NCBI GenBank assembly: GCA_026988735.1
Contig: JALSKR010000204.1
Coordinates: 1 to 11,682 of the forward strand
Reading direction: 5' to 3'
Origin: Sulfurimonas sp.
GTDB lineage: Bacteria; Campylobacterota; Campylobacteria; Campylobacterales; Sulfurimonadaceae
Length of the DNA: 11,682 nt
Numbering within the stretch: position 1 is the first letter of the stretch; every line of letters begins with the position of its first letter. A program made the position numbers and the translations under genes. Positions 1,551 to 9,874 of the stretch are shown piece by piece. The notes under the pieces are model-generated. The model did no database searches, was not told the DNA's origin, and saw nothing but the letters and a program-made list of their open reading frames with translations.

Positions 1551-2303
1551 ATGGAAAAACAAAAAGTAATAATAGTCGAAGATGATGAAATCACATCACT
1601 TAACCTAAACATGTCTTTACAAAAGCATGGATACAATGTAGTGGCGATATGTGATAATGCTCCTATGGCAAAAAGTAAAATAGCTACACACAATCCGGAT
1701 GTCATTATTATTGATATCTCTTTACAAGAAAGCAATGACGGAATCGAACTTGCAAAGACTATAAAAGAAAAATATGATATTCCTTTTATTTATCTCACTT
1801 CATACAGTGATGATGACATTATTGCCCAGGCAAAACTTACTGAACCTTATGGATATATTGTAAAACCTTTTGACCCCGGATCTCTGCATGCAACTCTTCA
1901 AATGGCTTTGTTCAAATACCAACAGGAAAATGAAAGAAAAGAGAATATAAATTCACTCAAAGTAGATAAACTGAACCTGGAAAAACTACTCTATTCCAAA
2001 CGTTCACAAGACAAACCTATCGTTCCGTTCGGTGGTGGTGATTATCATCTTGACATCAGTATATGCGAAACCTTTTACAAAGGAAAAAAGATCAAGCTTA
2101 CAAAAAAAGAAAATGCTTTTTTGCGCCTTCTTGTTGCCCAGCTTGGTTTGGTTGTATCGTTTGAGCAGGCAATGAACTATGTATGGGATGAACACGGTGC
2201 TACCGAAAACAGTGTAAGAACACTGGTATGGAGACTCAGAAACAAACTCGAAACAGACATTATAAAAAATGCTTCAGGAATTGGGTATTACATAGAGGAT
2301 TAA
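1551..2303 (+). CDS. Response regulator: receiver plus OmpR/PhoB-type winged helix
   Basis: A 250-residue DNA-binding response regulator. The receiver (about 4-120) has acidic residues Glu10-Asp11-Asp12, phosphoacceptor Asp55 in IIIDIS, Thr83 and Lys105 (VKPF), all intact. A charged, probably helical linker (about 121-160) leads to a Trans_reg_C winged helix (about 165-250) with KLTKKE, the recognition-helix region TENSVRTLVWRLRNKL and the terminal GIGYYIED wing. The receiver resembles those of hybrid kinases more than the usual OmpR receiver, and the linker is longer than normal. AGGGAAAG precedes the ATG. It converges on the hybrid kinase with 1 nt between stop codons and is its natural phosphorelay acceptor (inference). 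Winged helices of this type typically bind direct repeats about 11 bp apart; such repeats lie before sqr. Confidence 0.93.
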   Translation: MEKQKVIIVEDDEITSLNLNMSLQKHGYNVVAICDNAPMAKSKIATHNPDVIIIDISLQESNDGIELAKTIKEKYDIPFIYLTSYSDDDIIAQAKLTEPYGYIVKPFDPGSLHATLQMALFKYQQENERKENINSLKVDKLNLEKLLYSKRSQDKPIVPFGGGDYHLDISICETFYKGKKIKLTKKENAFLRLLVAQLGLVVSFEQAMNYVWDEHGATENSVRTLVWRLRNKLETDIIKNASGIGYYIED

Positions 2304-2304
2304 A

Positions 2305-4599
2305 TCAATTGACTTGAATTGATGCAATCTTCTCTTCTATTTCTTTCAAAGTTTGCTCATAATTATAGTCTGCATTTTCAAGTTTTGCCATTTTTTCCAT
2401 TTCAGTTGCATTTTTTTGTAAAATTTCGATTCTAAAATTTCCACTTGATCCTTTAATACTGTGAGCAAGAAGTGCTGTTTTTTTATAATCTCTTGCAGCA
2501 ACAGCTTTTGCCAAGTCACTCAAAGTCGTTTTCATTTTTTTAATGAAAAGTGTCAAAAGCATAATAAGCTCATCTTCATTCAACATCAACTCTTTCATCA
2601 GTTTCTTTGCATCCAAACCTACAATTTTTTGATTGTCTGTGGAAAATATATCTGTTTTATCCTCCTGTATAACACTGTAAGAGTCTAGTTTCAGATATGC
2701 CATAAAAACACGTTCTAACTCTTTTAGAACCAAAGGCTTCCCTAAAAACGTGTCGAATCCGTTAAGTAAATCTCTCTCTTTACTCCCCTTTAACACATTG
2801 GCTGTCAGAGCAGAGATTGGCGTATGACTTAAACCGTTTTTTTCCTCGTATTGGATAATTTTAATGACGGCATCTGTTCCGTTCATAACAGGCATCTGCT
2901 CATCCATAAGAATTAAATCATATCTGTTTTTTTGATACAGTGCAACCGCCTCTTTTCCATTGTGAGCCAAATCAAATGTCAAGCCATATCTGCTGAGGAC
3001 AATCTTCATCAGTTCCTGATTCGCTTCATTATCCTCAGCAACCAGGATATGCCCCTTGAATTTATTGGAGATTTTTTTGTTATGTATTAATGATAACTCA
3101 GGGTTGAGCAGTTCATTGAAATGTTTATGAATTTTTGAACAATACAGAGGAAAACTCATCGCCTTGATATGCTCATAGTGTTCATAGGTATCATACTCTT
3201 TGCTCATAAGTGCTATATATTTTTTTTCAGAATAGATAATCTCTTTTTGTATGTTTATGTCACATGTTTCATGCACAAATATACATATATCAAACTCGCA
3301 GTCAAGTGTCTCTACAACACTGATGTTCATCGCAAAAATTTCAGCATACTTCAAAAACGATTCATGTCGAAAATCTAAAACTTTGTCTTTGGCATAAAGA
3401 ACCATTTTTAGTTTTTGAAAATCACTGATATCTTTAAATATCTGACACTCATTATTTTGCACTGCAACAGGGATATCCAACCAAAAGGTACTGCCCTTGC
3501 CGACTTGTGATTCTACATGAACACTTCCGTTCATTAACTCTGCAAGTTGGTGTGATATACACAGCCCTAGACCCGTTCCCTCTTTATTGTTGTTTTGGCT
3601 AAACTGTGCCTGCGTAAATGCAACAAATATACTTTCCATATCTTTTTCATTTATACCGACTCCGTTGTCTGTTACACTGATTGTAAGCTGGTTGTTATGA
3701 CAGCTTGCTTCAACCTTTATCACACCTCCCTCAGGTGTAAATTTTATGGCATTACTTAAAAAATTCGAGACTATTTGTTGAATTCGTAGAATATCACCAA
3801 ACAACTCTTTTGGAATACGAGGATCTATAAACGAAGTAATGGTAATATTTTTTGAATTTGCACTCGCTACAAAAAGCTCCATCGTATGGCTTAGTTCTTC
3901 ATGCAGAGAAAAAATCTTTGGCTCAATCGTAAACTCACCGCTTCTCAGTTTTGAAAAATCCAAAATATCATTGATAATACTCAGCAGGTTTTCACCGCTG
4001 CTTAATATAATATCCAAATAATTTCTATGTTTATTGGAAATATCTTCATCCATCAAAAGATTTACAAAGCCTAAAATAGCATTTAAAGGCGTGCGTATTT
4101 CATGAGACATATTGGAAAGAAAGTACTCTTTTGCCTGAGAAGCACGCAGGGCTTCCTGTCTTGCGTCAATGAGCTTTTGGAAAATACTGTCTGTATAATA
4201 TTTTAAAATGCCTTTAAAGTTTTTGTCAAAAATATAAGAAATCTCTTCAAATATCTCTTTTGAGTTTACCTTGGCATCATAAGTAAACTCTATCATGGAA
4301 CGACGGAAATTACTGCATATCTCAAACAACTCGTCCGCACTGATCTCACGATGTTTCAAATAGGCCAAAAATTCCTGCATAACAGGACAGTCACCGATGT
4401 CTCTCTCACCCGCAATAACGCCCATAAAGTAGTCAAATACACCGCTGGCATATTTTTCTATAAATTCTTTTTCATCCATTTTATGTAAATGAAGTATCTC
4501 TTTTACAGAAGCATACGATATCCATTGCTGCAGTATATCTGACTTTGAAGATACAAATACGCCTTTTACTGCTCTTAAATGGATGCTGCCTTCTTTCAT
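2305..4599 (-). CDS. Soluble hybrid sensor histidine kinase (kinase, receiver, HPt)
   Basis: A 764-residue cytoplasmic kinase with no membrane segments. Residues 1-140 form an all-helical N-terminal region with CPVMQEFLAYL and ELFEICSNFRRSM; it vaguely recalls RsbR-type sensor domains, but I cannot name it. A helical linker (about 140-160) leads to the HisKA domain with His166 in SNMSHEIRTPLNA. The ATPase domain follows, with Asn283 (N box), DNGVGI at 311-316 and GTGLGL at 341-346. Residues about 395-500 look like a decayed receiver without a usable aspartate. A true receiver (about 515-635) has Glu522-Asp523, Asp566, Thr599 and Lys621. The C-terminal HPt domain has His713 in AHSIKGSSG. This layout resembles BarA and ArcB, which relay His-Asp-His to a separate regulator. 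The start lies 10 nt after the pseudo-deformylase stop, with no strong ribosome-binding site, suggesting coupled translation. Confidence 0.93.
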   Translation of the reverse strand: MKEGSIHLRAVKGVFVSSKSDILQQWISYASVKEILHLHKMDEKEFIEKYASGVFDYFMGVIAGERDIGDCPVMQEFLAYLKHREISADELFEICSNFRRSMIEFTYDAKVNSKEIFEEISYIFDKNFKGILKYYTDSIFQKLIDARQEALRASQAKEYFLSNMSHEIRTPLNAILGFVNLLMDEDISNKHRNYLDIILSSGENLLSIINDILDFSKLRSGEFTIEPKIFSLHEELSHTMELFVASANSKNITITSFIDPRIPKELFGDILRIQQIVSNFLSNAIKFTPEGGVIKVEASCHNNQLTISVTDNGVGINEKDMESIFVAFTQAQFSQNNNKEGTGLGLCISHQLAELMNGSVHVESQVGKGSTFWLDIPVAVQNNECQIFKDISDFQKLKMVLYAKDKVLDFRHESFLKYAEIFAMNISVVETLDCEFDICIFVHETCDINIQKEIIYSEKKYIALMSKEYDTYEHYEHIKAMSFPLYCSKIHKHFNELLNPELSLIHNKKISNKFKGHILVAEDNEANQELMKIVLSRYGLTFDLAHNGKEAVALYQKNRYDLILMDEQMPVMNGTDAVIKIIQYEEKNGLSHTPISALTANVLKGSKERDLLNGFDTFLGKPLVLKELERVFMAYLKLDSYSVIQEDKTDIFSTDNQKIVGLDAKKLMKELMLNEDELIMLLTLFIKKMKTTLSDLAKAVAARDYKKTALLAHSIKGSSGNFRIEILQKNATEMEKMAKLENADYNYEQTLKEIEEKIASIQVN

Positions 4600-4609
4600 T
4601 GTTATACCA

Positions 4610-5428
4610 TTATCTTACATGTAACAAAAAGTATGATGCAACTGTAATGACAAACAGTTTCACCAAAGATATTGCGGTTGTTCCGACAATATTTCCTAAT
4701 TGGCAGCTACTGCATGCGACATAACGTTTTCCTTCATACTGAGCATAAAAAAAGTAAATTATGTTTAAACCAATGACTCCGTATATCGTATAAAGTTGAT
4801 ATGACCACAGAGTCTGCAAAGTCTGTTCATTATCAATAAAAAAAGATGCCACAAGAGGAAGAAGCATAAAAAACATAACAACATTTATAAGTTTCAAAAT
4901 TTTATCTCTGAAAAAGACCGTAGGACAGTAATCAGCATTTGTAGTATTTATACCGTTTTCTAAACTTTTTTCAAACTTTTCTTTTTCTTCTTTGGACATT
5001 TTTTGCACAAAAGTAGCGCCAAAGGTATAATCTATTTTTCTTTGAATTCTTACAGAAAAATCTCCCCTTGCCTGTAGTGACTTATCATTTCCATTTCTGT
5101 CTTGATAAACAACACTGATAGTTTCAAACCGTTGTATCTGTGCTGTTTTTCCGGGATAGTATGCAGTTGATTCTGTTGTAATTATTCTTCCCTTATGGTT
5201 TATCAACCGGGGATTGACCATTTCCACAAACTCATCATTATCATCTTTAACAACAATAACATTATAAAAACTTCCGATTTGATAAGCACTCAAAGCATCC
5301 AAATTATTTTCATTGATAGTATCTTTAAGATTATCTATCAAGGCAAATAATTCATTGTTAAAAACTCGAACATCCACAGCATATTCAACACTGAGTGGTG
5401 TAGGATATTTTATTATTTCTTTTATCAC
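4610..5428 (-). CDS. Membrane protein with a degenerate peptide deformylase-like domain
   Basis: A 272-residue protein. Residues 1-160 align by eye along the whole peptide deformylase fold: an N-terminal YPTPLS like the HxPdxxL start, LDALSAYQ (43-50) for GxGLAAxQ, VNPRL, TESTAYYP (85-92) for EGCLSxP, and VRIQRKIDYTFG (126-137) for xxIQHExDHLxG. Gln50 is kept, but the metal-binding Cys is Thr88 and the HExxH residues are Arg130, Lys131 and Tyr134. All three metal ligands and the catalytic Glu are lost, so it cannot be a deformylase. Three membrane helices follow (about 178-198, 210-229, 252-270). A CxxC (C239, C242) lies in the loop that positive charges place in the cytoplasm. Translation starts at GTG 5428, with AAAAGG 7 nt upstream; the ATG at 5430 is out of frame and meets TGA at once. 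A role as sensor or kinase partner is inferred from position. Confidence 0.75.
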   Translation of the reverse strand: MIKEIIKYPTPLSVEYAVDVRVFNNELFALIDNLKDTINENNLDALSAYQIGSFYNVIVVKDDNDEFVEMVNPRLINHKGRIITTESTAYYPGKTAQIQRFETISVVYQDRNGNDKSLQARGDFSVRIQRKIDYTFGATFVQKMSKEEKEKFEKSLENGINTTNADYCPTVFFRDKILKLINVVMFFMLLPLVASFFIDNEQTLQTLWSYQLYTIYGVIGLNIIYFFYAQYEGKRYVACSSCQLGNIVGTTAISLVKLFVITVASYFLLHVR

Positions 5429-5446
5429 ATGTAAACCTTTTAAATG

Positions 5447-5476
5447 AAGAGCTTTGAATTACATTTCAAAGCTCTT
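5447..5476 (-). terminator. Hairpin between the small membrane protein and pseudo-deformylase genes
   Basis: A perfect 12-bp inverted repeat (5447-5458 with 5465-5476) around a 6-nt loop, 4 nt past the stop codon of the small membrane protein. On the minus strand it is followed by CATTTAAAAGG, not a U run, so termination should be partial at best. It may set a lower level of kinase expression relative to sqr, or protect the 3' end of a processed sqr message. It ends only 5 nt before the ribosome-binding site of the next gene. Confidence 0.5.
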
Positions 5477-5480
5477 ACAA

Positions 5481-5660
5481 CTAATGACTTTTACTAACAA
5501 CAATTATCATTTTAATATTGATAATAATAAAACGAATAAACTGAAAAATAACACATGTTCTTAACCTTCTTGCAAATGCACCAGGTATCATAGTTAATTG
5601 GTACTGTTCATTTTTTTGGAAGTTCTCTTCCTCTTTTACAATTTTTACTTCATTACTCAT
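5481..5660 (-). CDS. Small single-span membrane protein downstream of sqr
   Basis: A 59-residue protein, below common gene-calling cut-offs. It is supported by an ideal AGGAG 5 nt before the ATG and by its position 13 nt after the sqr stop. Residues 1-20 are charged (MSNEVKIVKEEENF...). Residues 21-30 hold a short LTMIPGAFA segment. A basic RRLR at 31-34 then leads to one hydrophobic helix at about 36-55, near the C-terminus. With Arg and Lys before the helix, the N-terminus should face the cytoplasm, giving a tail-anchored topology. I recognise no family. Co-transcription with sqr suggests a subunit, membrane tether or signalling partner of the sulfide oxidase or of the downstream kinase system (inference). 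Confidence 0.7.
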   Translation of the reverse strand: MSNEVKIVKEEENFQKNEQYQLTMIPGAFARRLRTCVIFQFIRFIIINIKMIIVVSKSH

Positions 5661-5673
5661 ATTATCTCCTTTT

Positions 5674-7143
5674 TTATTCTGGAATCAATGTCCAACCTGG
5701 ATTTAGTTTTGCTTTGTAAATAAACAAATGATGTAAGATATGCTTAATCCAATGTCCGGCAAGTCCAATTTCCCCAAATGTATAATCTGTATCACGACCT
5801 GTTCCAGGATACTTTTCAAAGTCAGGAACAACTGGATAAACAGTCATTGCTGCCGCTGTACCGGTAAAAATACCTTTTCCAGCACTCGCAACACAAGCAG
5901 CACCCATTTCAGCCATAGAAGCTTCATGCAAGTGAGCATTTTCACCTTTTGTAATCATATCACAAACTGAGTGCGCAACCGCTTTTCCTATAATACCTGA
6001 AGGCATACCAGTTCTTGGAGGAGTAGGATTGATAGGTGTTCCATTAGGTGATTTCATCGGTTTAGAAATAAGATGTGGCGGTGCAAAAGCAATGCCAGCT
6101 GCAAACATATTTTTATATGTAGGGTTTTGATATGTTCTTGGCCAGTCACTTGCTTTCCACTCGGCATAAGGTTTTGGAGTATAATCAGCATCAACTTTCA
6201 TAAAACCATTTGGAGCAAATACTGTATCAGTTATATCCTCACCTGATTTATTATATGCTTTGAGTCCAACACCAGCAAAAGGAGGAATAAGCATTGCAAA
6301 ATCAAATGTCTCTTCGCCTGTGCTACCATCTAGAAGTTCATATGCAACCTTGCCCTGCTCGACTTTAGAAACATGTGCACCAATTAACCATTCAATATTT
6401 CTCTCAGCATATAATGACTCGGCAAAAAGTTTTGAAGAGACAACATACCCACCAACTTTCATATGGAGTCCTCCCATACCAAAATCACCTAAAAAAGATT
6501 CATTAGAGATCCATTTTATATCTGCCATATCACGAACACCAGCTTTTCTCAGTTCATGTTCAATATTGAAAATATACTCAAATGCAGCACCCTGACAAGT
6601 ACACATACCATGTCCTGTACCTATTAAGAATTTTTGACGTGTTCCGCCTTTCATCTTTTCTATAGCCTCTTGTAACTTCTCAGAAGCATGCACAGCATGA
6701 TCAGCCGTACAGACAGAAACTGTATGCTCGCCTAATTGACTGCCTTCACCCAGTCCCGGTGTTGCACCAAAATTGAGTTTTGGTCCTGTAGCATTTACAA
6801 TATAGTCATACTCTATATTTTCAGTCTCTCCGGCTTTATCAGCACTTGTATACTCTATAGTCACAAAAGGTTTATCACTGGATTCAGAACCTTCTGGATT
6901 CAGAGAAACTGCTTTTGCCTGACGATAATCAATGCCTGCTTTTGCATATACAGGTGCCAAATCAAAAGTAACATCTTTTTTTGTCATTTGACCAACACCA
7001 ACCCAAATGTTTGATGGAATCCAGTTCCACTTTGCATTTGGTGTAACAACGACAACTTCATGATCCGAGCCTAACCATTTTGCAGCGAATGTTGCCGTTG
7101 TATGACCAGCAACACCACCACCTAATACAACTAATCTTGCCAT
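5674..7143 (-). CDS. sqr: Sulfide:quinone oxidoreductase
   Basis: A 489-residue FAD enzyme that oxidises sulfide to sulfur or polysulfide and passes electrons to the membrane quinone pool. The FAD-binding Rossmann motif is LGGGVAGHTT (7-16); the second flavoprotein motif is NATGP (117-121). Cysteines at the positions expected for the redox pair and the third conserved Cys are C181 or C183 (GMCTCQGAAFEY), C417 (ACVASAGKG) and C145 (SVCTADHA). The extra Cys at 181/183 forms a CTC. The C-terminal part (about 455-480, with WIKHILHHLFIYK) is amphipathic and should seat the enzyme on the membrane. It is longer than the roughly 430-residue type I enzymes and looks like one of the longer types; I cannot fix the type. 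I chose ATG 7143, where GAGGAAA is well spaced and the Rossmann fold starts at once. The frame is open upstream to ATG 7170, but that would read through the ribosome-binding site. Confidence 0.92.
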   Translation of the reverse strand: MARLVVLGGGVAGHTTATFAAKWLGSDHEVVVVTPNAKWNWIPSNIWVGVGQMTKKDVTFDLAPVYAKAGIDYRQAKAVSLNPEGSESSDKPFVTIEYTSADKAGETENIEYDYIVNATGPKLNFGATPGLGEGSQLGEHTVSVCTADHAVHASEKLQEAIEKMKGGTRQKFLIGTGHGMCTCQGAAFEYIFNIEHELRKAGVRDMADIKWISNESFLGDFGMGGLHMKVGGYVVSSKLFAESLYAERNIEWLIGAHVSKVEQGKVAYELLDGSTGEETFDFAMLIPPFAGVGLKAYNKSGEDITDTVFAPNGFMKVDADYTPKPYAEWKASDWPRTYQNPTYKNMFAAGIAFAPPHLISKPMKSPNGTPINPTPPRTGMPSGIIGKAVAHSVCDMITKGENAHLHEASMAEMGAACVASAGKGIFTGTAAAMTVYPVVPDFEKYPGTGRDTDYTFGEIGLAGHWIKHILHHLFIYKAKLNPGWTLIPE

Positions 7144-7178
7144 ATAATTTTCCTCTTTATTTAAGTTCAAAATAACTC

Positions 7179-7207
7179 TATCAAAATAATATCACAATGT
7201 TATCACA
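7179..7207 (-). promoter_or_regulatory. sqr promoter with three direct repeats spaced 11 bp
   Basis: On the minus strand, TGTGATA (7201-7207), TGTGATA (7190-7196) and TTTGATA (7179-7185) follow one another at exactly 11-bp steps. TATTAT at 7186-7191 is a candidate minus-10 box overlapping the second repeat. No minus-35 box is seen: that region reads AAAATC. A promoter without a minus-35 box and with 11-bp direct repeats upstream suggests activation by an OmpR/PhoB-type regulator, such as the one at 1551-2303. The sqr start codon is 36 nt downstream. Confidence 0.5.
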
Positions 7208-7240
7208 TGATTTTCTTTCTTTTTTAGATAAATTTTAAAA

Positions 7241-7280
7241 GCAAAAAACACGACAGCCTACAAATGCCTAAAACAGGACA
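7241..7280 (-). repeat. Two imperfect 15-bp direct repeats between pepN and sqr
   Basis: The segments at 7241-7255 and 7266-7280 match at 12 of 15 bases, 25 bp apart; on the minus strand the pattern is TGTCsTGTTTTwkGC. They lie in the 169-nt gap between the pepN stop and sqr, upstream of the TGTGATA repeats. They could be a second regulator's sites. I found no convincing pepN terminator in this gap. Confidence 0.35.
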
Positions 7281-7312
7281 GTTGCAAAAAATTATAATCG
7301 CATATTTTAAGC

Positions 7313-9874
7313 TTATTTTAATATTTTATCAATAATTTCAAAACTGTTTTTTGAAAGTCCCTGTGTAGAAATTACACGTTCGAGTTCCTCTTTCATTAAC
7401 TCCTGATTATGTTCATTCATTTTATCACACACTTTAAAAGCCCCACATAACCCTGAAGCTATTTGTGGATTGATTTTATCTATAGCAATTATTTTATCAG
7501 CCAAAAATTTATATCCGCTTCCGTCTTTGGCATGAAAATGTTTATGGTTTCGCGCGAAAGAACCAACTAAAGAGCGGACAAGATTAGGGACTTTTTCATC
7601 ATATACTTTGTCTCTTTGAAGTTTTTCAACACGCTCTAAGACGTCATACCTGCTTGAAGATGCCAAAATAGCAAAGTATTTGTTCATAACAAGTGTTTCA
7701 TCTTTGTATTTGTTGTAAAAATCCTGCAGTGCGACTTCTGCATACTCTACATGTAAGTTTTCCAGAACATCCAAAGCAACAATCCGGTCAGTCATAGTAA
7801 GTGATTCTTCATACTGTTTTTGTGCCAATGCTGCGACCTCATCATTTTTCAGTATGGAAAGAATTTTTAATGCTCTGTTTTTTATGGCCCGTTTTGCTAT
7901 ATACTGTGCTTCTAAGTTTGCTGATGCCGGCAGATGATTTTGCTTGTAAATATCGAACAACTTCTCTTTGTATTTTTGTGCTATATGCAATAACAGTTTA
8001 TCCTGTGCATCATATATAACATCAAAATCTATCTCTTTTTGCAGTTGCATAATTGCAGAAACAGACGGTAGTTCTAAAAGCAGTGCTTTATACGACAAAT
8101 CAACATCCAAATCTAACAAATGTCCATACGCATCTACAAACAATTCGTCAAGTGCATCCGAAGCTATCAGTTTGTTTATCGTCTGCAATGCAAAATTCTG
8201 TGTTGCCTCATACTGCGTAAAACTGTTTGTGTCATACTGCATTAAAAAAGCATAGTTATTCTCTTCCTGTTCTACAATTATCGGTGCAGAAAAATCCCTG
8301 TTTATCGAAAGTACAGGTTTTGTTTGAAGATTTTCAAACACAAACTCTTCCTTTTCTTTTGAAATTATCAATGTTTTTGAGAGTATTTCACTTCCGTTTT
8401 CATCCAACAGTCCCATTTTTAAAGGATAATAACAGGGAAGCTGTTTTTTTCCATCAACACTCTCAGGAATTATCTGCTCCAAGAAAAGTCTGTATATTCC
8501 ATTTTCAAACGACTCCTTTACATGTAAACGCGGTGTTCCGCTTTGCTTATACCATCTTTTAAAAAGTTCCAAGTCAAAATCACCGCATTCATGCATCGCC
8601 CATAAAAAGTCATCAGTTGTAACGGCCTGTCCGTCAAAAGTCTCAAAATACAGATCCATTGCCCGTCTGTAGTTTTTCTCTCCCAAAAGTGTATAAACCA
8701 TGCGTATAACTTCTGCGCCTTTTTCATAAACCGTAGCCGTATAAAAGTTATTCATAGATATGTAGGACTCGGGCTGAATCGGATGGCGTGTCGGCGAGGC
8801 ATCTTCAACAAACTGTCTCTCTCTGAGTGCTTTTACATCTTCAATACGTTGCACCTGTGGTGAATTCATATCTGCAGAAAAGCACTGGTCACGAAAAACT
8901 GTCAGCCCCTCTTTGAGTGTCAGTTGAAACCAGTCTCTACATGTAATGCGGTTTCCTGTCCAGTTGTGAAAATACTCATGTGCTATCACACTCTCTATTC
9001 CCATAAAGTTGGCATCAGTGGCTGTATCTGTATCTGCCAGTACATAGGCGGAGTTGAAAATATTGAGTCCTTTGTTCTCCATCGCACCCATGTTAAAACT
9101 CTCAACCGCTACAATATTGTAAATATCCAAATCATAGGCACGCCCGTATTTCTCTTCATCCCATTTCATAGAGGCTTTCAGCGAGTACATGGCATGATGA
9201 CACTTTTGCTCATTTCCCAAATCGCAGTAAATATTTAACGCGACTTTATTCCCCTCTATTGTTGTAAATTCATCACTTATACTGCCAAGATTTCCTGCAA
9301 CAAGCGCAAAAAGATACGATGGTTTTGGATGCGGGTCATGCCAGGTTACCCCGTGGCGTTCACCAAAGTCATCATGGCACTTGACTTTATTACCGTTACT
9401 GAGTAAAACCGGATACTTTTTTTTGTCTGCAATAATCGTTGTAGTAAAAACACTCATAATATCAGGACGGTCAAGATACGGCGTTATGCTTCTAAAACCC
9501 TCAGGCTCATTTTGGGTACAAAAAATATCGCCTGATTTATACAGTCCTTCGAGTTCTGTATTGTTTTGCGGATATATTCTGTTTTTGATTTTTATCTCAA
9601 ATGTATCGGGAACATTGAGAACAGTAAGCTGTTCTTCTTCAATAATATAACGGCTCTCCTGCAACTTTAAACCGTTTAAAGAGAGCTCTAAAAGTTCCAG
9701 GTTCACAGCATCAAGTGTTAAATCATTCACACCTGCATCGACTTTTGTTATCTGCATCGTGTTTGTAACAAGTGTCTCTTCTTCAAATAATTCAAACAAC
9801 AAAGCAACTTTTTCAATTGCATAGGCGGGTTTTTTATAATCTTTTAAATATTTTGCTTTTACTTCTACACTCAT
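7313..9874 (-). CDS. pepN: Aminopeptidase N (M1 family metallopeptidase)
   Basis: An 853-residue cytoplasmic zinc aminopeptidase that removes N-terminal residues from peptides during protein turnover. The substrate-anchoring GAMEN motif is at 263-267. The zinc site is HEYFH at 299-303 (His299, His303, catalytic Glu300), with the third ligand Glu322 in TLKEGLTVFRDQ. The length and motif context match the E. coli PepN type (870 residues), with the immunoglobulin-like (DUF3458) domain and helical C-terminal domain occupying about 450-853. The ATG overlaps the rhlE stop codon by one base (TAATG), so translation is probably coupled. Its stop is 169 nt before sqr, on the same strand. Confidence 0.95.
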   Translation of the reverse strand: MSVEVKAKYLKDYKKPAYAIEKVALLFELFEEETLVTNTMQITKVDAGVNDLTLDAVNLELLELSLNGLKLQESRYIIEEEQLTVLNVPDTFEIKIKNRIYPQNNTELEGLYKSGDIFCTQNEPEGFRSITPYLDRPDIMSVFTTTIIADKKKYPVLLSNGNKVKCHDDFGERHGVTWHDPHPKPSYLFALVAGNLGSISDEFTTIEGNKVALNIYCDLGNEQKCHHAMYSLKASMKWDEEKYGRAYDLDIYNIVAVESFNMGAMENKGLNIFNSAYVLADTDTATDANFMGIESVIAHEYFHNWTGNRITCRDWFQLTLKEGLTVFRDQCFSADMNSPQVQRIEDVKALRERQFVEDASPTRHPIQPESYISMNNFYTATVYEKGAEVIRMVYTLLGEKNYRRAMDLYFETFDGQAVTTDDFLWAMHECGDFDLELFKRWYKQSGTPRLHVKESFENGIYRLFLEQIIPESVDGKKQLPCYYPLKMGLLDENGSEILSKTLIISKEKEEFVFENLQTKPVLSINRDFSAPIIVEQEENNYAFLMQYDTNSFTQYEATQNFALQTINKLIASDALDELFVDAYGHLLDLDVDLSYKALLLELPSVSAIMQLQKEIDFDVIYDAQDKLLLHIAQKYKEKLFDIYKQNHLPASANLEAQYIAKRAIKNRALKILSILKNDEVAALAQKQYEESLTMTDRIVALDVLENLHVEYAEVALQDFYNKYKDETLVMNKYFAILASSSRYDVLERVEKLQRDKVYDEKVPNLVRSLVGSFARNHKHFHAKDGSGYKFLADKIIAIDKINPQIASGLCGAFKVCDKMNEHNQELMKEELERVISTQGLSKNSFEIIDKILK

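Follow-up and report, generated by a model that had tools for sequence, protein, structure and literature searches.

Why should a gene with the fold of peptide deformylase (PDF), stripped of the residues of that enzyme and prolonged by a membrane tail, lie next to a sulfide:quinone reductase (SQR) gene in Sulfurimonas? The question is raised by a window of 11,682 nucleotides (the whole stretch of DNA that was analysed), in which an original prediction had noticed a dead deformylase at 4610-5428, between sqr and a hybrid kinase, and had proposed its reuse as a membrane sensor or kinase anchor. The gene does occupy these coordinates, on the minus strand, and we give somewhat better than an even chance to the reading that its product is a membrane-bound accessory subunit, probably sensing or regulatory, dedicated to SQR. 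The neighbourhood comprises the following genes:

1551..2303, plus strand: response regulator with a Trans_reg_C DNA-binding domain, convergent with the kinase gene.
2305..4599, minus strand: hybrid histidine kinase (HisKA-HATPase-REC-Hpt), 10 nt after the pseudo-deformylase gene.
4610..5428, minus strand: gene of the pseudo-peptide-deformylase membrane protein (272 aa, GTG start).
5481-5660, minus strand: small gene of 59 codons, 13 nt after sqr, with AAGGAG upstream.
5674..7170, minus strand: sulfide:quinone reductase, closest solved structure 3hyv; by inspection, the true start is likely an ATG near 7143.

Both sqr and the kinase gene thus flank the pseudo-deformylase as described, but the small gene, which had been overlooked, separates it from sqr. 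Within the pseudo-deformylase itself, the parts that matter for the argument are these:

4958..5428, minus strand: deformylase fold with replaced active site, residues 1-157 (Pfam PF01327, Foldseek 2ew5).
5165..5167, minus strand: Thr88, at the position of the metal ligand Cys in the family alignment.
5027..5041, minus strand: Arg130-Lys131-x-x-Tyr134, at the position of His-Glu-x-x-His in the family alignment.
4613..4957, minus strand: membrane module, residues 158-272, with helices modelled at 173-194, 201-235 and 244-271.
4925..4927, minus strand: Cys168, before membrane helix 1, predicted cytoplasmic, present in 116 of 120 family members.
4703..4714, minus strand: C239-S-S-C242, in a loop that links helices 2 and 3 and is predicted to be cytoplasmic; each of the two Cys is found in 120 of 120 members.

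The deformylase fold can be followed from end to end. Pfam PF01327 matches residues 2-149 (profile positions 1-155 of 156) with an E value of 4.8e-26 and 91.6 bits against a cut-off of 22.8, and our profile A1 found the H. pylori PDF, PDB chain 2ew5, at 1.1e-27. An AlphaFold model, built from 67 of the 81 sequences collected at that stage, showed a mean pLDDT of 84.5 and a pTM of 0.54, with residues 9-15 and 160-166 below 50. Foldseek searches with this model against the PDB returned 2ew5 as the top match (E 1.2e-12, TM 0.81 by target length), the fold being the same throughout at 28% identity in the Foldseek alignment, followed in third place by the E. coli PDF 1xen; the best 50 of 612 matches are deformylases by title. 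Structure prediction and Foldseek together therefore answer the objection that the fold might be a different one: it is that of PDF, closest to 2ew5. The six NCBIfam deformylase models that match the protein all score under their cut-offs, as in the case of TIGR00079 (62.5 bits versus a curated cut-off of 103.95). An ordinary deformylase is also encoded in the genome of the window, on another contig, so this genome keeps a canonical Def separate from the pseudo-deformylase.

A family of relatives was collected by scanning the contigs of 84,980 species, which gave 87 sequences, nearly all titled Sulfurimonas, Sulfurovum or other Campylobacterota. Eighty of them were kept and, together with the window protein and 39 of 40 more distant relatives (one contig-end fragment was dropped), they make up the 120 members considered here. 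Thr88, Arg130, Lys131 and Tyr134 align with the Cys, His, Glu and His of canonical PDFs of the same phylum in 31 out of 31 cases, a count in which only the Cys and, partly, the first His were free to vary, as these PDFs were chosen by a motif including the Glu and the second His. Among the 120 members, the position of the ligand Cys is occupied by Thr (101), Ser (12) or Asp (7) and never by Cys; that of the first His by Arg (111), Gln (7) or His (2); that of the catalytic Glu mostly by Lys (109) and never by Glu; and that of the second metal His mostly by Tyr (102) and never by His. Homologues keeping the Cys or the HExxH motif, which would speak against a pseudo-enzyme, were looked for: an aligned Cys or HE pair occurs in 0 of 120 members, and two keep His130 alone. 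The complete Thr-Arg-Lys-Tyr (TRKY) set is found in 98 of the 120, and the other 22 carry different sets (DRKM, SQMF, SHQY, TQQF and others). Compared with the PDFs 2ew5 and 1xen, the family lacks the metal ligand set and the catalytic Glu in all 120 members and adds a membrane tail.

Much of what surrounds the pocket has nevertheless been kept. E86, R100 and D133 are retained in 120 of 120 members, and Q129 and G137 in 119. The family and the canonical set share a conserved residue at 17 of the 155 positions that can be compared, whereas six (43, 88, 90, 130, 131 and 134) switch from one conserved residue to another (at least 80% in the family), all of them within the three deformylase motifs. 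Positions 13, 87, 89 and 135, invariant in the canonical set, are mostly lost with no conserved replacement. In a FastTree phylogeny of 35 members, 31 canonical PDFs and three PDB sequences, the family forms one clade with a support of 0.92, the nearest canonical sequence being a long branch. A degenerating gene copy can be rejected, because the substitutions are common to the family and dN/dS values in 14 pairs stay between 0.00 and 0.16 (PDF half, 0.000-0.160; tail, 0.030-0.159; dS >1 in several of the pairs). Such family-wide substitutions in a gene under purifying selection support the pseudo-enzyme proposed originally, and the alignment indicates an active site replaced by other conserved residues rather than eroded. 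A metal site moved elsewhere in the protein was also considered and rejected, since no conserved His appears in the tail columns of 81 sequences. Judged from its residues, the protein does not belong under the name of peptide deformylase: the fold is present, and the metal and catalytic residues are not.

The tail had been described as three membrane helices with a CxxC loop. The first and third helices are clear in family-averaged hydropathy (peaks of 2.31 and 2.09), but the second is weak (1.37), which is why three helices are likely, short of proof. The CxxC falls in the break between the modelled second and third helices, and both of its cysteines are kept throughout the family. A third cysteine that the earlier account did not mention, C168, is almost as conserved. 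The rebuilt pocket varies more than the CxxC (98 versus 120 of 120 members), and as 22 members vary in the pocket while C239 and C242 are invariant, constraint seems to be weaker on the pocket than on the tail. The segment joining helices 1 and 2 is acidic, and a slight net positive charge is found both ahead of helix 1 and in the loop from helix 2 to helix 3; from these charges and the lack of any signal peptide in sight, the three thiols are predicted to lie on the cytoplasmic side. The tail profile (A2) had no match in the PDB up to an E value of 10. One locus, L156 (3690-3986), carries a stand-alone, tail-like membrane module of 98 aa with a CTGC motif and no deformylase part (profile A1, 22.7 bits), which begins right at the stop codon that ends the small gene, with sqr upstream, and was missed in the genome search. 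This module has no Pfam match, and its existence suggests that the tail can occur as an independent unit. Fusions in which the tail adjoins a kinase or another domain were searched for, and none was seen among the open frames at the matches, of 259-373 aa once weak and contig-edge matches are left out.

With which protein does this membrane pseudo-enzyme work? The best solved relative of the SQR of the window is 3hyv (E 5.7e-44), the SQR of Aquifex aeolicus, and the three cysteines that are catalytic in the Aquifex enzyme align and are kept. Because of this nearness to the Aquifex type, the enzyme may be a type IV SQR in the scheme cited in PMC4584964. Among 397 Campylobacterota genomes searched with an SQR threshold of E <= 1e-60, this SQR type is present in 111, which include all 79 genomes holding the pseudo-deformylase family (84 by raw tally, five weak matches with E values from 7.8e-4 to 0.0097 being excluded), and 286 genomes have neither. 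In 71 of the 79 the pseudo-deformylase lies within 1.5 kb downstream of sqr on the same strand, and the co-occurrence gives a Fisher p of 1.4e-57 when kinship is ignored. Within the genus of the window, the four genomes without this SQR also lack the family. At the level of loci, sqr is found just upstream in 84 of 118 (three more of the 121 loci had no called family gene), including distant families with otherwise different neighbours. A profile search found no pseudo-deformylase in 32 of the 111 SQR genomes, one of which (G218) has the stand-alone module; SQR can therefore work without the pseudo-deformylase. Taken together, genomic context strongly supports SQR, rather than the kinase, as the constant partner of the pseudo-deformylase.

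The small gene is tied to SQR even more tightly. In all of the 127 locus copies examined, which include duplicates and the 20 SQR-only loci, a relative of the small gene comes after SQR. At the level of whole genomes, each of the 111 SQR genomes contains such a relative and the 286 others contain none; moreover, second SQR copies in three genomes each have their own small-gene copy beside them. The 59-aa protein, which ends in RTCVIFQFIRFIIINIKMIIVVSKSH, matched nothing in Pfam or the PDB, and is possibly an obligate small subunit of SQR, as far as gene distribution can tell. In genome G303 (contig C95, 19311-20271) a second family copy adjoins a copy of the small gene, with no SQR match on that contig. 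Regarding transcription, a promoter and terminator scan of 4400-7400 gave no more predictions than shuffled sequences and is consequently uninformative about an operon.

The hybrid kinase had been noted as having no membrane segment of its own, and hydropathy bears this out for 48 kinases of more than 700 aa, with a highest 19-residue mean of 1.55, the usual threshold for a membrane helix being 1.6. This feature, along with a kinase gene starting 10 nt downstream, favours a pseudo-deformylase acting as membrane sensor or anchor of the adjacent kinase, with the thiols sensing and the PDF domain binding the kinase, a reading that we nonetheless regard as improbable. Constant co-occurrence was not found: counting at loci only, 52 of 118 have the kinase as one of the next two genes downstream. 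A kinase neighbour is present in 47 of the 84 loci where sqr is upstream and absent in the other 37, and among the 34 loci with no sqr in view it appears in five, all of which start less than 450 nt from a contig end; the remaining 29 lack it. In these 29, less than 350 nt of sequence is available on the upstream side of L059 and L072 and on the downstream side of L051, L053, L061, L073 and L136. Moreover, in two of the 20 SQR-only loci examined (from 32 such genomes; L154, L156 and L164 end, at contig ends, less than 800 nt after sqr), L153 and L155, the genes that come after sqr and the small gene are those of the kinase and the regulator, and there is no pseudo-deformylase. The kinase also has conserved residues of its own, as C71, P72 and C95 are invariant (48 of 48) in an N-terminal part whose ~150 aa have no Pfam match. 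With no membrane helix and these residues kept, the kinase may sense by itself.

The copies located away from sqr (29 of 118 loci, among L049-L076 and others) offer a different panorama. Within three genes of them we find a MerR regulator (11), a CMD-family protein (11), a DsrE-like protein (7) with, by eye, a signal-like N-terminus, or a thioredoxin-like protein (2), neighbour types assigned by running Pfam on one example of each. The other copies show nothing of this kind, and a sulfur or redox theme appears to hold for only part of this group. Given these different neighbours, the pseudo-deformylase is not confined to one operon. The DsrE-like genes would fit a sulfur relay, in which C168 and C239/C242 take sulfane sulfur from SQR as persulfides and pass it on, doing chemistry and not sensing. 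The genomic link to SQR and the presence of three nearly invariant thiols on what is predicted to be a single face of the membrane are in keeping with such a role, to which we assign a low probability, as the tail has no relative of solved structure and the stand-alone module no Pfam match.

The accessory-subunit reading could accommodate these observations as follows. A deformylase copy would have lost metal and catalysis early, and its pocket would have been rebuilt with conserved Thr, Arg, Lys and Tyr; a membrane module with the three predicted cytoplasmic thiols would have been joined to the dead PDF domain. The resulting protein would sit at the membrane beside SQR, with the dead domain docking SQR or the 59-aa protein, and the thiols would sense or take up what SQR generates, be it sulfane sulfur or a redox state. 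The neighbouring hybrid kinase may then receive this signal in the Sulfurimonas family. The partnership with SQR is strongly supported by genomics, and its mechanism is what we infer from it; besides the co-occurrence, the tail-like module after sqr in L156 and the CMD-family and DsrE-like neighbours of some copies away from sqr speak for this reading. Against the accessory subunit stand the kinship that confounds the SQR co-occurrence and the 29 loci away from sqr, some with no sulfur or redox gene near; the second membrane helix is also only weakly hydrophobic, and were SQR periplasmic, its product would not be directly accessible to thiols in the cytoplasm.

A more specific version, to which we attach only a slim chance, would make the rebuilt pocket itself the sensor: a metal-free anion site of Thr, Arg, Lys and Tyr that binds hydrosulfide or polysulfide and, through the thiols, gates SQR and in some lineages the kinase. 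Foldseek matches include, by title, E. coli deformylases with bound hydrosulfide (4az4 and 4al2), a lead suggesting that this ligand could have been accommodated by the pocket of the ancestral enzyme. A still more doubtful role is that of assembly factor, the peptide groove of the dead PDF receiving, at the membrane, the nascent N-terminus of either SQR or the small protein. The retained fold and PDF positions (Q50 in addition to E86, R100, Q129, D133 and G137) would suit it, as would an SQR with no obvious export signal in its sequence; SQRs in general are membrane-attached and have no obvious export signal. Against it, positions 43, 87-90, 130, 131 and 134, located within the active-site motifs of deformylases, are among those changed, and SQR genomes without the pseudo-deformylase exist. 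Finally, a new enzyme with a different chemistry in the old pocket is very unlikely, for although the replacing residues are themselves conserved, 22 members depart from the TRKY set while C239 and C242 never vary.

Membrane-anchored pseudo-enzymes are known in general, but for one of deformylase fold tied to SQR we found no precedent: literature listings showed no SQR accessory protein of PDF fold, and titles and abstract beginnings, in a coverage that leaves out most subscription journals and all preprints, contained no paper on the pseudo-deformylase. As to accessory or regulatory genes of SQR, the order found here is sqr, small gene, pseudo-deformylase. TorE and NapE, according to PMC6134056, are small membrane proteins that aid a respiratory enzyme, and the 59-aa protein and the pseudo-deformylase may do likewise for SQR; the pseudo-deformylase differs from them by its soluble pseudo-enzyme domain and its thiols. 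According to PMC4584964, SQR is believed to carry sulfide oxidation in Sulfurimonas, and what each of its several types does has yet to be settled. In this regard, the pseudo-deformylase and the 59-aa protein would be two concrete, testable candidate partners of SQR, and the family would be a case of a housekeeping enzyme whose fold has found a new use in respiration at the membrane.

Public annotation files at least one relative under 'peptide deformylase', although the residues proper to that enzyme are missing from the family. On a plasmid of Sulfurovum mangrovi (NZ_CP087125.1, 5001-5816), the only one of 25 matching plasmid records to be covered at 80% or more, the relative is annotated as two 'peptide deformylase' pieces, preceded in order by an FAD-dependent oxidoreductase and a hypothetical small protein, the latter a 53-codon gene at the place equivalent to that of the small gene. 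Elsewhere in the window, a DUF302 protein (Pfam PF03625) is encoded at 309-788 on the minus strand.
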